The notes under the pieces were generated by a model. That model did not search any database. It saw only the letters and a program-made list of their open reading frames with translations, and was not told where the DNA came from. A stretch of DNA of 64,000 nt, taken from the NCBI GenBank assembly GCA_026416715.1, contig JAOAEQ010000008.1, positions 59,338 to 123,337 of the forward strand. Direction: 5' to 3'. The position numbers and the translations under genes were made by a program. Below are positions 59,201 to 64,000 of the stretch, piece by piece; position 1 is the stretch's first letter; each line of letters starts with the position of its first letter. This DNA comes from a bacterium. Lineage in GTDB: Bacteria > UBP4 > UBA4092 > JAOAEQ01.

Positions 59201-59653
59201 TTAATGTACTACGATTTTATCATATCCAAGGGTAGTAGCTAAACTAGATTTGCCATTCAGTGGAAGTTCGAGTGTCGCTTCGATACAACCGTTTGGTAAT
59301 TCGCGAATTTCACGAATTCGAAAACCGCGAAGAAACGCTTTAACTTTCGTTCGGCTAACCTGCCCTTTGCTTTCCTTAATTACTTTTCCGACTACCTTTG
59401 CTAAATTCCGTTGCGCAACTACAATTGCAGCCCGCCGTGCCATTAATTTCGCTTGCGCTGAACTAACGGAAAATGTCGGCGGTTTTCCGATTCCTTTAGC
59501 GACGATAACGTTCTGGTCAACCCTGATTTCATCGCAAGAACGAATAGTAAGTACTTTTTCAACTTTCGATATCGGTTGCGCTATTGCAAAACCAAATTCA
59601 ATAATGAACCCTAATAGAAGAATCGTGATAAATGCTGAAAAAGTAATCTTCAT
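59201..59653 (-). CDS. exported LPP20-like repeat protein 1
   Basis: About 150 residues from ATG 59653. A signal peptide (FSAFITILLLGFIIEFGFAIA) is followed by one domain with SSAQAKLMARRAAIVVAQRNLA, VKAFLRGFRIREIREL and a C-terminal beta-strand (CIEATLEL). It matches the repeats of the two upstream LPP20-like genes. An alternative start at 59680 falls inside a hairpin element, which supports the ATG used here. Last gene of the cluster; function unknown. Confidence 0.78.
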   Translation of the reverse strand: MKITFSAFITILLLGFIIEFGFAIAQPISKVEKVLTIRSCDEIRVDQNVIVAKGIGKPPTFSVSSAQAKLMARRAAIVVAQRNLAKVVGKVIKESKGQVSRTKVKAFLRGFRIREIRELPNGCIEATLELPLNGKSSLATTLGYDKIVVH

Positions 59654-59659
59654 ATTATT

Positions 59660-59725
59660 ACCACCAAGACACCAAGTCACAAAGGGTGGATATATAATGA
59701 TATTATTTCTTGGTGCCTTGGTGGT
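59660..59725. repeat. hairpin with ACCACCAAGACACCAAG arms
   Basis: accaccaagacaccaag (59660-59676) pairs with cttggtgccttggtggt (59709-59725) at 16 of 17 positions. It fills the whole gap between two genes of the LPP20-like cluster and abuts the stop codon of the upstream one. Same design as 4336-4429. Confidence 0.75.
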
Positions 59726-60844
59726 TTATTTGATTTTTATATCTAGTCTATTTTGCGTGGTACTGGTTATCTCGACTTTCGGGTTCTGCATGGTGGTTAA
59801 GTCCGATTCGAGCTGGCTTACCGTTCCTGAATAATCGACATTTAATATCCCGATATTGTTAAAGAACAATCGGCGGTATACATTCTGGATATTCGATATT
59901 TTCTTCAATGCCGTTTCAAATGCGGTTAATTTCTGCAAACTCGGCGAACTTACGACTAATTGATAATCCGTCTGGTTATATACTTCTTTCCGCCATCGGT
60001 CGAATAGTTTATTAACAATCTGCGGCGCGAGTTTCGATCCCGCCATATTAAACGCAGCACGAGCTGCAGGTTTCGGTCCGCTAGCGCCTTTTTTTGCAGT
60101 ATAGCTATCTACTGCAAGAATAGTACCGGTATCAGCTCTAACCGCTTTAACATCAATATTCGCAGTATAGAAATAAAGCGTTTCACCATAAACAACATCT
60201 GTTCCTGCCGATTCCGCATTCGCTTCACCAACGATAACAATATCCGCACCGAACCGTTTTCCGAGCGCCGCCGCTTTCTCCGGATTCTTATAATTCAGCG
60301 CAATATCCCGCGCTTTAATCTGTTCAAGTTGTGATTTATCAACCAACTCCAAACCGGATTCGAGCAGAGCCGACTCGATTTTCGTTCCGACATTACTGCT
60401 GGTCTGCTCTTCATCATCAATCTTTTCAGCAACCAGCACCATGACCAGCGGTTTCTCTTTCAGTGCATAAATCAACCCTTTCGCTAATAAATCGTTGTTC
60501 AGTTTACCGATTGAAACCACCGCTTTGACTTTAACCCAATATTCTCCAGCTTCTTTCCCCTCTTCAAGCAGTTCATATGATTGAACATAACCGGCAGTTT
60601 GCGTGATAATCAGGTCGTTTAATAATTTAAAATCTTTCACCGCACTGGTTGACGCGAGTACGACCCCGACCCCTTGTTCAACTGCGTTCCGTAGCGCATC
60701 GTGAACCGCTTTATCTTTCGCTTTTAAATCTGTTCCTGCCGCGCGACCTTCAGCAATTACGATTTTCGTTTCCTGCGCAAATGAAAAAGTAATAAACAGT
60801 GATATAAAAATAAGACTTATAAAGACTAGTTTAATTGTTTTCAT
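59726..60844 (-). CDS. exported FlgT-like protein of the LPP20-type cluster
   Basis: 372 residues from ATG 60844. A signal peptide (LVFISLIFISLFITFSFA) leads into an N-terminal domain with AKDKAVHDALRNAVEQGVGVVL, QTAGYVQSYELL and VKVKAVVSIGKL, similar in layout to the FlgT N-domain and LPP20 repeats. The middle part (ALLESGLELVDKSQLEQIKA, GKRFGADIVIVGEANA) resembles FlgT/CsgG-like middle domains. The C-terminal 100 residues are a small alpha-beta domain. FlgT is a flagellar outer-ring protein, but no flagellar genes are present, so a different outer membrane role is likely. Confidence 0.75.
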   Translation of the reverse strand: MKTIKLVFISLIFISLFITFSFAQETKIVIAEGRAAGTDLKAKDKAVHDALRNAVEQGVGVVLASTSAVKDFKLLNDLIITQTAGYVQSYELLEEGKEAGEYWVKVKAVVSIGKLNNDLLAKGLIYALKEKPLVMVLVAEKIDDEEQTSSNVGTKIESALLESGLELVDKSQLEQIKARDIALNYKNPEKAAALGKRFGADIVIVGEANAESAGTDVVYGETLYFYTANIDVKAVRADTGTILAVDSYTAKKGASGPKPAARAAFNMAGSKLAPQIVNKLFDRWRKEVYNQTDYQLVVSSPSLQKLTAFETALKKISNIQNVYRRLFFNNIGILNVDYSGTVSQLESDLTTMQNPKVEITSTTQNRLDIKIK

Positions 60845-60907
60845 AAGGGTACCCTTCAACAATTTTACATTACTACTTGCTCATTTTTAAAGTTATATTG
60901 AATTTGA

Positions 60908-60960
60908 AGGAGCAAAGTCCGAAGTTTACCCCGATAATTCGGGGTTCGGACTTTGCTCCT
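60908..60960. repeat. nested hairpin, GCAAAGTCCGA family
   Basis: Outer stem aggagcaaagtccga (60908-60922) with its exact complement (60946-60960), and a second stem ccccga/tcgggg (60929-60944) inside. The outer stem text is shared with 1356-1382. It separates two genes of the LPP20-like cluster. Confidence 0.75.
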
Positions 60961-60969
60961 TTCATTGAT

Positions 60970-61383
60970 TTAATATCCTTTACATGCAGCGCGAATATCC
61001 GCTAGCCGCACCTCAACCACAACTTCGAATGTTTTATCGGGCAACTCGCGAGCGGAAACAACCCGTGCGCCGCGAATAACCGCATCAACACGAGTTCGAA
61101 TCCTATCATCGCGCGTGATGAAATCCTGGACAGTCGTTTCGCCTTCTATCCGAACGCCTTTAATCCGTTCCGCAAGATTCCGATACGCATCCGCTTGTGC
61201 TGCCCGTTGCGCAAGTAACCGTGCTTGCGCTGGGGTTCCACCTGGTCGTGGTGGCGGCGGCGCACCGTAGCCGGTTGCACGAATTACTGGCGGTCCCGGT
61301 GGCGGTCCTGATGGCGTAGTCGCACAGCTAACCAAAATCATTAAAAAACAAATAAGAACGAATGGAAATAAAACTTTCTTCAT
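60970..61383 (-). CDS. LPP20-like lipoprotein
   Basis: 137 residues from ATG 61383, chosen because GGGAGGTG lies just upstream. The lipobox LMILVSC gives lipidation at the Cys, then a Pro/Gly-rich linker (GYGAPPPPRPGG) and one LPP20-like domain: ARLLAQRAAQADAYRNLAERI, DDRIRTRVDAVIRGARVV and FEVVVEVRL. The Pro-rich linker also occurs in the middle of the upstream protein. Probably sits in the outer membrane. Function unknown. Confidence 0.83.
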   Translation of the reverse strand: MKKVLFPFVLICFLMILVSCATTPSGPPPGPPVIRATGYGAPPPPRPGGTPAQARLLAQRAAQADAYRNLAERIKGVRIEGETTVQDFITRDDRIRTRVDAVIRGARVVSARELPDKTFEVVVEVRLADIRAACKGY

Positions 61384-61400
61384 TGTGTTCACCTCCCAGA

Positions 61401-61523
61401 ACTTTGGATTGCGGTAGCTTGCTACCGCTTTGATGTTCCGAAGCTTGCTTCGGAATAAGTTTTATCACTAGGAAGCTGGCTAATACCAAAGCGAAAACAA
61501 GCTTTCGCACTCCACATCTCAAA
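61401..61523. repeat. cluster of AAGCTT-core palindromes (composite repeat, copy B)
   Basis: gcggtagcttgctaccgc (61411-61428), ttccgaagcttgcttcggaa (61436-61455) and gcgaaaacaagctttcgc (61491-61508), starting at ctttggatt and ending gcactccacatctcaaag. Positions 61402-61455 match the reverse complement of 50477-50530 at 52 of 54 bases. It lies between the tandem LPP20 gene and the lipoprotein gene. Confidence 0.8.
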
Positions 61524-61589
61524 GACAAATTTAGCATTACCAATTAAAATTTAAAATGCTAAATGCTAAATTTGCAATGAATGATTTTA

Positions 61590-62360
61590 TCAACGGTATA
61601 TTATCGGAACCAATCCGTCCAGTGATAACGCTACATCAACTTCGCAAGTGCCGTCGGAGAGATAGCGGACTCCGATAACTTTTGCACCGCGAATGAACGC
61701 ATCTACATTCGTTCGAATCGTATCGTCTTTCGTTATAAAATTCTCGACGGTCGTTTCCGCATCAATTCGCACACCTTTAACCTGTTCCGCAAGCAGCCGG
61801 TAGGCATCAACCTGCGCCGCGCGTTTCGCCATAAGTTTCTTCTGTGCGGCTGACCCTGATTCCGGTGCAACACCGGTTCCAGTAACTTTAATCACCCGAG
61901 TTGCCCATTCCGGAGTCGGTGGGACTTTTTCAGTCGGCGGTGGAGTCGTTGCGACTGGTTCCGGTGGCGGTGGTGCGCCGTAACCGTAAGCAATTATATC
62001 GCCATACTGCCGAGCAAGCCGACGACCGAGAATTTTCTCTAATTCCGCTTGTTTCATCATAACCGTAACTTCACACGTACCATCGTCTTCATACCGAACG
62101 TTGGTAACTTCGATGCCTTTAATGAATGTATCCAGCCGGGTACGAATCGTATCATTCTCAGCAACGAAATCTTTAACGAACGTGCCGGATGTTAATCGGA
62201 ATCCCATAACCTGCTCGGAGAGATTCCGATACGCATCCGCTTGCGCCGCGCGTTTCGCCATTAATTTCGCTTGCGCATCAGACATCGTCTGCCCGATAAC
62301 TACTGGGACGAAAACGAGAACTAGAATAAGTGTTGTTAATAGGAGAACATTTTTCTTCAT
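61590..62360 (-). CDS. exported protein with two LPP20-like repeats
   Basis: 256 residues. A signal peptide (VLLLTTLILVLVFVPVVIG) is followed by two copies of the same domain of about 85 residues: copy 1 from AQAKLMAKRAAQADAYRNL to GTCEVTVMM, and copy 2 from AQKKLMAKRAAQVDAYRLL to GTCEVDVAL. A Pro-rich linker (GYGAPPPPEP) joins them. Both keep IRTNVDAFIRG or a close variant. GGAGG stands 11 nt before the ATG. First gene of the cluster; it looks like an internal duplication of the repeat seen singly downstream. Confidence 0.83.
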   Translation of the reverse strand: MKKNVLLLTTLILVLVFVPVVIGQTMSDAQAKLMAKRAAQADAYRNLSEQVMGFRLTSGTFVKDFVAENDTIRTRLDTFIKGIEVTNVRYEDDGTCEVTVMMKQAELEKILGRRLARQYGDIIAYGYGAPPPPEPVATTPPPTEKVPPTPEWATRVIKVTGTGVAPESGSAAQKKLMAKRAAQVDAYRLLAEQVKGVRIDAETTVENFITKDDTIRTNVDAFIRGAKVIGVRYLSDGTCEVDVALSLDGLVPIIYR

Positions 62361-62519: not shown

Positions 62520-64000
62520 TTATATTTCATTTTTTCGGTTAGCGGGAATATGTATAATTCCAACTATTCTTTCAGCTAACCGACTAGTAATCTTTCCGGT
62601 TTGAGTAATAATCAGATAACATATATTGTTAAGTTTGCTTACAAATGAATTAATGCGATTCTGGGGAAACCCGCACCGGGCATAAAATCTATATTTTGGA
62701 TTCAGGGGTTTTAGGTTCAGGTGTTTCATTGCCCAGATTGCATCCCGATTATACATTTCGTAGAACCAGCCGCGTTGAAGTAAGACTAAACCGCGGAACT
62801 GCCGCCGGAAAAAATTGTATTGGGTATAGATATTTACCGGATGAAAGGGTACCACCCATTTTTTTATTACTCGGTTCTGCTGTTGTCGAAATAATAACGG
62901 TAATAACACGAACTTATTAAAAAGCGACTTTTTCAGCCGATAACAACACGCGTGCAGAAAAATTCCAAAATAGGAATTAAGACTAGCAGTTAATTTAGAA
63001 TAATCAGCCTGATGTAATCTTAGAAAGATACCTTCCTTATTTCTATGGAGCATTGATTGAGTATACGTTCGAATAGCATTTTGGCAATTATCTACTATTC
63101 TGCGACGCACTAATAAATGGGTTGGCTTGACGATATATCCCAAAAAATCTATCCCGTTAGATACCGGTCGAATAAAACTCCGGTTGGGATTTAATTCTAT
63201 CGCTAAATGTTCTTTTAAAAAGCAATCAATGGACTTTATCCATAGTTCGAGTTGTTCTCTATTTTGATGAAGGAGAACCAAATCATCGACATAGCGGAGG
63301 TAGTAAGGACATTTAATCGTATGTTTAATAAACTGGTCTAAAGGATTTAAATAGATATTCGCAAAAAACTGGCTGGTGAGATTACCAATTGGTAATCCTT
63401 TTCCTTCGGGAACATAAAATAAACTCTTATGCGGTGGCACATTTCGCCATTTAGTCGGAGAACAAGTAAACGTCGGATTGTGCGTCGGTTCATATAAGAT
63501 TAACGTTTCTGTCAACCAGCGTATTTCGTCATTAGTAACTTTTGAAAGAACCAAATCGAGTAATTTATTTCTATCGATTGATGGGAAAAAAGCGCGAATA
63601 TCGAGTTGCGCAAAGTATGCTCGTTGCGTAGTATTCGCGGTAACTTTCCGAAGAAACGAGCGTAATCGGGATACCGCTGCGTGCGTTCCTTTTCCTTTTC
63701 GGCAGGCATAGGAATCGTAAATAAAAATCGGTTCCCAGATTTTCTCTAAATAACGAACTAGTAAATGATGAACGACCCGGTCGCGGAAATCCGCGGCGAA
63801 TACTTCTCGATACTTATCATTTTTTGAGATGAAACAGAACGATGCGGATGGCGCATAGGTTCGCGTTTGTAATTCGTGGGTTAATTCAAGCAGATTCTCT
63901 TCCGCATTAAGTTCAAACGCTAATGCCGATGGTTTTCCACGTTTTTTGCGTCGGCAATCCTGATACGCTCGATAAACATTCTGATATGTAAATAGGGAAT
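62520..64000 (-). CDS. reverse transcriptase with C-terminal MutS-domain-I-like module (5' end beyond window)
   Basis: The frame is open from the right edge (first full codon at 63998) to a stop at 62520: 492 residues, with perhaps 20-30 missing at the N-terminus. RT core: FRDRVVHHLL and YDSYACRKGKGTHAA, motif A QLDIRAFFPSID with Asp133, IGNLTSQ at 204-210 and YLRYVDDLVLL with YVDD at 236-239. IGNLTSQ is characteristic of diversity-generating retroelement (DGR) type enzymes, unlike the QGxxxSP of group II introns. A thumb-like segment (GIDFLGYIVKP) follows. Residues about 398-485 resemble MutS domain I: LVLLQRGWFYEMYNRDAIW with Phe412-x-Glu414, CGFPQNRINSFVSKL, and LAERIVGII. No template or variable repeat is visible nearby. 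Confidence 0.9.
   Translation of the reverse strand, partial: SLFTYQNVYRAYQDCRRKKRGKPSALAFELNAEENLLELTHELQTRTYAPSASFCFISKNDKYREVFAADFRDRVVHHLLVRYLEKIWEPIFIYDSYACRKGKGTHAAVSRLRSFLRKVTANTTQRAYFAQLDIRAFFPSIDRNKLLDLVLSKVTNDEIRWLTETLILYEPTHNPTFTCSPTKWRNVPPHKSLFYVPEGKGLPIGNLTSQFFANIYLNPLDQFIKHTIKCPYYLRYVDDLVLLHQNREQLELWIKSIDCFLKEHLAIELNPNRSFIRPVSNGIDFLGYIVKPTHLLVRRRIVDNCQNAIRTYTQSMLHRNKEGIFLRLHQADYSKLTASLNSYFGIFLHACCYRLKKSLFNKFVLLPLLFRQQQNRVIKKWVVPFHPVNIYTQYNFFRRQFRGLVLLQRGWFYEMYNRDAIWAMKHLNLKPLNPKYRFYARCGFPQNRINSFVSKLNNICYLIITQTGKITSRLAERIVGIIHIPANRKNEI

Follow-up and report, generated by a model that had tools for sequence, protein, structure and literature searches.

The 64-kb stretch of DNA analysed here (the window) ends in a gene for the reverse transcriptase (RT) of a diversity-generating retroelement (DGR), and the last ~105 residues of this RT are a genuine MutS domain I from which the rest of MutS is missing. 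DGRs are natural machines that hypermutate one target gene on purpose: in the BPP-1 DGR, the RT often misincorporates at adenines as it copies the TR RNA, and the VR that ends the target gene is then replaced by the mutated cDNA. No denser targeted mutation is known from bacteria, and the way in which the cDNA of DGRs enters past mismatch repair is poorly understood. We consider it most likely, at a probability of slightly under one half, that the MutS-like tail grips the mismatched heteroduplex during mutagenic retrohoming, and it may also shield this intermediate from the MutS of the host. A mismatch reader that is fused to the mutating enzyme, and whose glutamate is near-invariant across nine phyla, offers a concrete, mutable handle on the question of cDNA entry.

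The window comprises positions 59338-123337 of contig C8, which is 123,337 bases long, and the right edges of the two coincide; the RT gene is truncated at its 5' end because the contig ends there. Close relatives have an RT beginning with M(A/T)SLFT..; that of the window, as far as it can be seen, opens with SLFT.., so that one to three N-terminal residues are probably missing. The top sequence match in the PDB was the RT of the BPP-1 DGR (bRT, 8ub7; E 9.5e-38), and a full-length AlphaFold model of the window RT (pLDDT 89.7) matched the same structure with a TM-score of 0.88 of the target over 364 columns (28% identity). The likeness extends over the RT core and the overall fold; bRT, however, has only 328 residues and lacks a MutS domain I; the fold match ends ahead of the tail. 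The GLPIGNLTSQ motif is common to all aligned DGR RTs, unfused DGR RTs also possess the region that follows the RT domain, as far as about residue 360, and the relatives recovered with the window RT were DGR RTs. Other RT classes were rejected because their scores fell below the curated cut-offs (group II intron RT, group_II_RT_mat, 114.6 bits vs 300; retron RT, St85 model, 54.6 bits vs 235; DRT/Abi RT, Drt3a model, 58.5 bits vs 200) and because the structure favours a DGR RT. The initial annotation had recognized an RT with a MutS-like tail, which stands, but it had missed the DGR nature of the enzyme, which is shown by the match to 8ub7 and by the TR/VR pairs described below.

Table 1. Positions of the features discussed in the text (without prefix, positions in the window; with prefix, positions in the contig or locus named).
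Feature	Position	Strand	Basis or remark
DGR-type RT with C-terminal MutS domain I	62520..63998	-	492 aa seen, 5' end cut
RVT_1 domain, residues 59-290	63129..63824	-	Pfam, 80 bits, E 2.6e-22
GLPIGNLTSQ motif, residues 201-210	63369..63398	-	invariant columns in two alignments
YVDD catalytic motif, residues 236-239	63282..63293	-	sequence; Y236, D238 and D239 invariant
Post-RT (thumb-like) helical region and linker, ~residues 291-384	62847..63128	-	secondary structure of the AlphaFold model
MutS domain I-like module (MSL), ~residues 385-485	62544..62846	-	profiles, hhalign, model, structure comparison
Pfam MutS_I stretch, residues 393-456	62631..62822	-	29.5 bits, E 9.5e-7, cut-off 20.6
Phe-Tyr-Glu (F412, Y413, E414), counterpart of MutS F-x-E	62757..62765	-	alignments to T. 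aquaticus MutS and to the MutS profile
Target gene, CsgG/TolB-like N-terminus and Lcl_C domain, ends in VR	C8:20145-21125		outside the window
VR	C8:21018-21122		outside the window
bAvd-like ORF, PF22296	C8:21228-21611		43.9 bits, cut-off 40; between VR and TR
TR	C8:21753-21857		outside the window
Free-standing MutS domain I	L017:4897-5262		between VR and Avd
Free-standing MutS domain I	L022:2176-2496		between VR and Avd
Free-standing MutS domain I	L040:3007-3342		between VR and Avd

Three peptides (LLQRGWFYEMYNRDA, CGFPQNRINSFVSKL and LAERIVGII) had been proposed to follow one another in the order of MutS domain I, and all of them are present in the window RT in that order. RVT_1 and MutS_I were the only Pfam domains above cut-off in this protein, with no connector, clamp or ATPase domain, and therefore it is not a MutS. 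MutS_I was also matched by 15 of the 16 aligned tails. A profile of the tails retrieved MutS chains from the PDB, the best being residues 15-115 of T. aquaticus MutS (E 3.4e-12), in whose alignment the G-[RC]-F-x-E of the tails sits on the G-D-F-Y-E of MutS, and a profile-profile comparison (hhalign) with 15 true MutS domains from other genomes gave a probability of 98.7% (E 2e-16, 105 columns). The AlphaFold model of the tail is confident (mean pLDDT 90.9), its listed Foldseek matches were MutS-family chains, and VIA-align returned a Z of 13.8 to MutS domain I versus 4.2 for the best unrelated fold. The likeness to domain I of bacterial MutS and of eukaryotic MSH3/MSH6 thus covers ~100 residues at an rmsd of ~2-3 Å and includes the F/Y-x-E motif, whereas identity is ~22-24%, the connector, lever/clamp and ATPase parts are absent, and the module is fused to an RT. 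The fusion claimed by the initial annotation is borne out by all of these comparisons (Pfam, tail profile, hhalign, Foldseek and VIA-align), and neither of the two results named there as counting against it (no MutS_I match above background, or a fold unlike MutS domain I) arose. An intact, separate MutS ORF (903 aa) is present in the same genome.

F412 and E414 of the window RT align with the Phe and Glu of MutS, so that the mismatch-reading pair is kept, as had been suggested. In an alignment of 16 tails no more than four columns never vary (Q42, G59, E63 and R126, numbered within the tail), and E63 among them is the Glu of F-x-E; in all but one of the tails the aromatic position holds F or Y (15 of 16), and outside a few positions the tails diverge strongly, with a mean column identity of 35%. 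Over 23 fusions the Phe column holds F in 11 and Y in 6 (17/23 aromatic), and the Glu column holds E in 18. The fused tails of three loci (L031, L052 and L059) are shortened or frameshifted, and some tails have a degenerate motif. A proteobacterial branch (L036, L038, L042 and L044) has lost F-x-E and much of the tail and has retained TR/VR and Avd, therefore the motif is dispensable for some such DGRs. In three cassettes (L017, L022 and L040) a free-standing MutS domain I protein is encoded in addition to the domain fused to the cassette RT; these copies (~105-120 aa, 53-54 bits in Pfam) keep the Phe, but Gln or His stands at the position of the Glu.

A scan of 84,980 species genomes yielded 80 DGR RT loci, 25 of which carry the tail. 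These fused relatives come from nine phyla (Planctomycetota, Acidobacteriota, Thermodesulfobacteriota, Pseudomonadota, Nitrospinota, Nitrospirota, Calditrichota, Verrucomicrobiota and Myxococcota); the fusion is conserved. On the RT tree the tail is strongly clustered, because its distribution needs three changes versus 22.4 in shuffles; one gain and two losses would fit this pattern on a tree with several weak deep forks. The tail profile matched none of the best 80 DGR RTs from IMG/VR, and tblastn of the tail against phage and plasmid records gave no match; the tail seems to be a trait of cellular DGRs more than of phage DGRs. The lone match of the tail profile in that IMG/VR set (L154) is an 860-aa open frame unrelated to the DGR RT, most likely a host MutS. 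An IMG/VR contig (L007) encodes an RT 50% identical to that of the window within a canonical DGR that also has Avd, a TR and two VRs; this RT, however, ends at about residue 366 and is without the MutS tail. In one fused relative (L014:5992-8550) the RT frame continues stop-free into an apparent N-acetyl-gamma-glutamyl-phosphate reductase (argC) sequence, perhaps through a lost stop or an assembly join.

The cassettes of the fused relatives hold TR, VR and Avd, as does the BPP-1 DGR, in the order target-VR, Avd, TR, RT, with the TR usually ending within ~6 bases of the RT start. Adenine-specific TR/VR pairs adjoin 23 of the 25 fused relatives; the tabulated pairs, which also cover the unfused L007, show differences in the VR at 639 of 1347 TR adenines versus 158 of 2927 other bases. 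In almost every fused locus whose upstream sequence is available, Avd precedes the RT, and a role of the tail as a substitute for Avd was rejected on this ground.

The genome of the window has a cassette of its own (L100:646-2358, corresponding to C8:20145-21857), in which 15 of 29 TR adenines are changed versus 7 of 76 other bases (Fisher p 7.6e-6), and in the first 78 bases 15 of 27 versus 1 of 51. It has no adjacent RT. No RT other than that of the window was found in the genome, and the only TR found lies ~100 kb away on the same contig; a TR or VR near the RT inside the window was not found. The RT lies opposite in orientation to the VR-Avd-TR cassette and is cut exactly at the TR-RT junction, where the contig ends; the last 121 bases have no match elsewhere in the genome, and on this basis a second contig continuing the RT was rejected. 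Inverting C8:21858-123337 (~101 kb) would put the RT directly after the TR, in the order usual among its relatives, and the flanks that follow TR and VR are diverged copies of one another. The separation of RT and TR would be explained either by a real inversion mediated by TR/VR or by an assembly chimera. A PF05635 match on contig C4 was rejected as the Avd of this DGR, since it is an S23-type protein away from any RT. Just past the TR (C8:22139-22765; L100:2640-3266) there is a gene for a DarT-like ssDNA thymidine ADP-ribosyltransferase (PF14487, 38.5 bits).

By homology to the Bordetella phage DGR, the window RT would copy the TR RNA, often misincorporating at adenines, and the mutated cDNA would replace the VR at the end of the target gene. 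We suggest that the tail places its aromatic residue into mismatches of the heteroduplex formed by the mutated cDNA and the VR (an alternative substrate might be the hybrid of cDNA and TR RNA), that this grip would keep the RT-cDNA complex attached to its target, and that the intermediate may thereby be shielded from the MutS encoded by the host genome itself. As the tail consists of MutS domain I alone, it could bind but could not signal repair. Several points count against the grip: within MutS, domain I reads mismatches as part of a dimer with clamp domains, one proteobacterial branch has lost F-x-E yet retains its DGR, many DGRs operate without a MutS tail, and the mutation load is the same with and without it (see below). 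If the tail does grip mismatched duplexes, it could be useful for better DGR-based diversification tools.

Less probable, and in our view rather unlikely, is that the tail is a repurposed scaffold which binds a structure of the TR RNA, Avd or a second copy of the RT and reads no mismatches. Such a role would agree with the fact that domain I works in MutS only within a large clamp, with the lineage that lost F-x-E yet kept other parts of the tail, and with the strong divergence of the tails beyond a few positions (35%, see above). A scaffold, however, has no evident need for a conserved pair of aromatic residue and Glu, and it is precisely this Glu that belongs to the four invariant columns, next to an aromatic residue in all but one of the 16 tails; furthermore, Avd is also present, so the tail is not its replacement.

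Whether a tail is present makes no large difference to the mutations themselves. Among genomic DGRs, 23 fused and 41 unfused loci were compared: the mean fraction of TR adenines changed was 0.473 and 0.464, respectively (p = 0.42), TR/VR mismatches outside adenines amounted to 3.8% in both, and the substitution spectrum was similar; since the rows share ancestry and TR/VR differences also reflect selection, the comparison excludes only large effects of the tail. A large effect on error frequency or on error correction is thus unlikely, and any effect that the tail has would be one invisible in TR/VR comparisons. These figures bear on the possibility that the tail, placed at the RT active site, holds mispaired primer ends so that synthesis passes adenine errors and mutagenesis is raised. 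The fusion does place the tail near the nascent hybrid, and a DGR RT has to continue from mispaired ends where the template holds adenine (as established for BPP-1), but the fraction of adenines changed is the same in fused and unfused genomic DGRs, and unfused DGR RTs mutate adenines without any tail; we regard this possibility as quite improbable.

The equal mutation load also argues against error correction, and hence against the proposal of the initial annotation that the RT might detect errors of its own or link reverse transcription to mismatch repair. Its further suggestion, that a template-product heteroduplex is sensed, may hold. A mismatch-reading domain is, to be sure, physically fused to a polymerase, but the role of a DGR RT is to make errors, and MutS talks to MutL through parts that are missing from the tail, which is domain I alone according to Pfam. 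Lacking the parts that signal repair, the tail makes sensing and repair the least likely of the mechanisms considered, and we hold it to be very improbable. That the similarity is due to chance or low complexity, with no real MutS module, can practically be dismissed, because the modest score of the lone Pfam match (29.5 bits) is countered by profile, profile-profile and structure comparisons that all return MutS domain I and by the conservation of the tail across phyla.

The grip on mismatched heteroduplex may be extended to the free-standing copies. In a branch of cellular DGRs, paired domain-I modules (an RT-fused one with F/Y-x-E, joined in some cassettes by a free-standing one with F-x-Q or F-x-H) might capture hypermutated intermediates and shield them from host repair, a speculative and on the whole improbable scenario; if it were true, a mismatch reader that once guarded against mutation would now be assisting it. 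Wu et al. 2018 reportedly introduced two new DGR accessory genes. A passage in a later source lists HRDC and MSL (MutS-like, PF01624) as known DGR accessories, citing Wu et al. 2018 for MSL (PMC10053308), so that the association of PF01624 with DGRs is already published and is not new. The modules described here share with the MSL of that passage the Pfam family and the link to DGR loci; here every one of the 26 loci has the module joined to its RT, and three of them encode a free-standing copy besides. In the literature searched, neither free-standing F-x-Q/H copies beside fused F/Y-x-E tails nor an unchanged mutation load were found described. The near-invariant Glu of the tail, the free-standing MSL copies with F-x-Q/H and the equal mutation load of fused and unfused DGRs are what the present analysis adds.

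Elsewhere in the window, a row of related genes for small secreted proteins or lipoproteins occupies positions 59201-62360 on the minus strand. Two of these genes match LPP20 (PF02169), one of them twice, and a FlgT_N-like protein, just under the cut-off, adjoins them.
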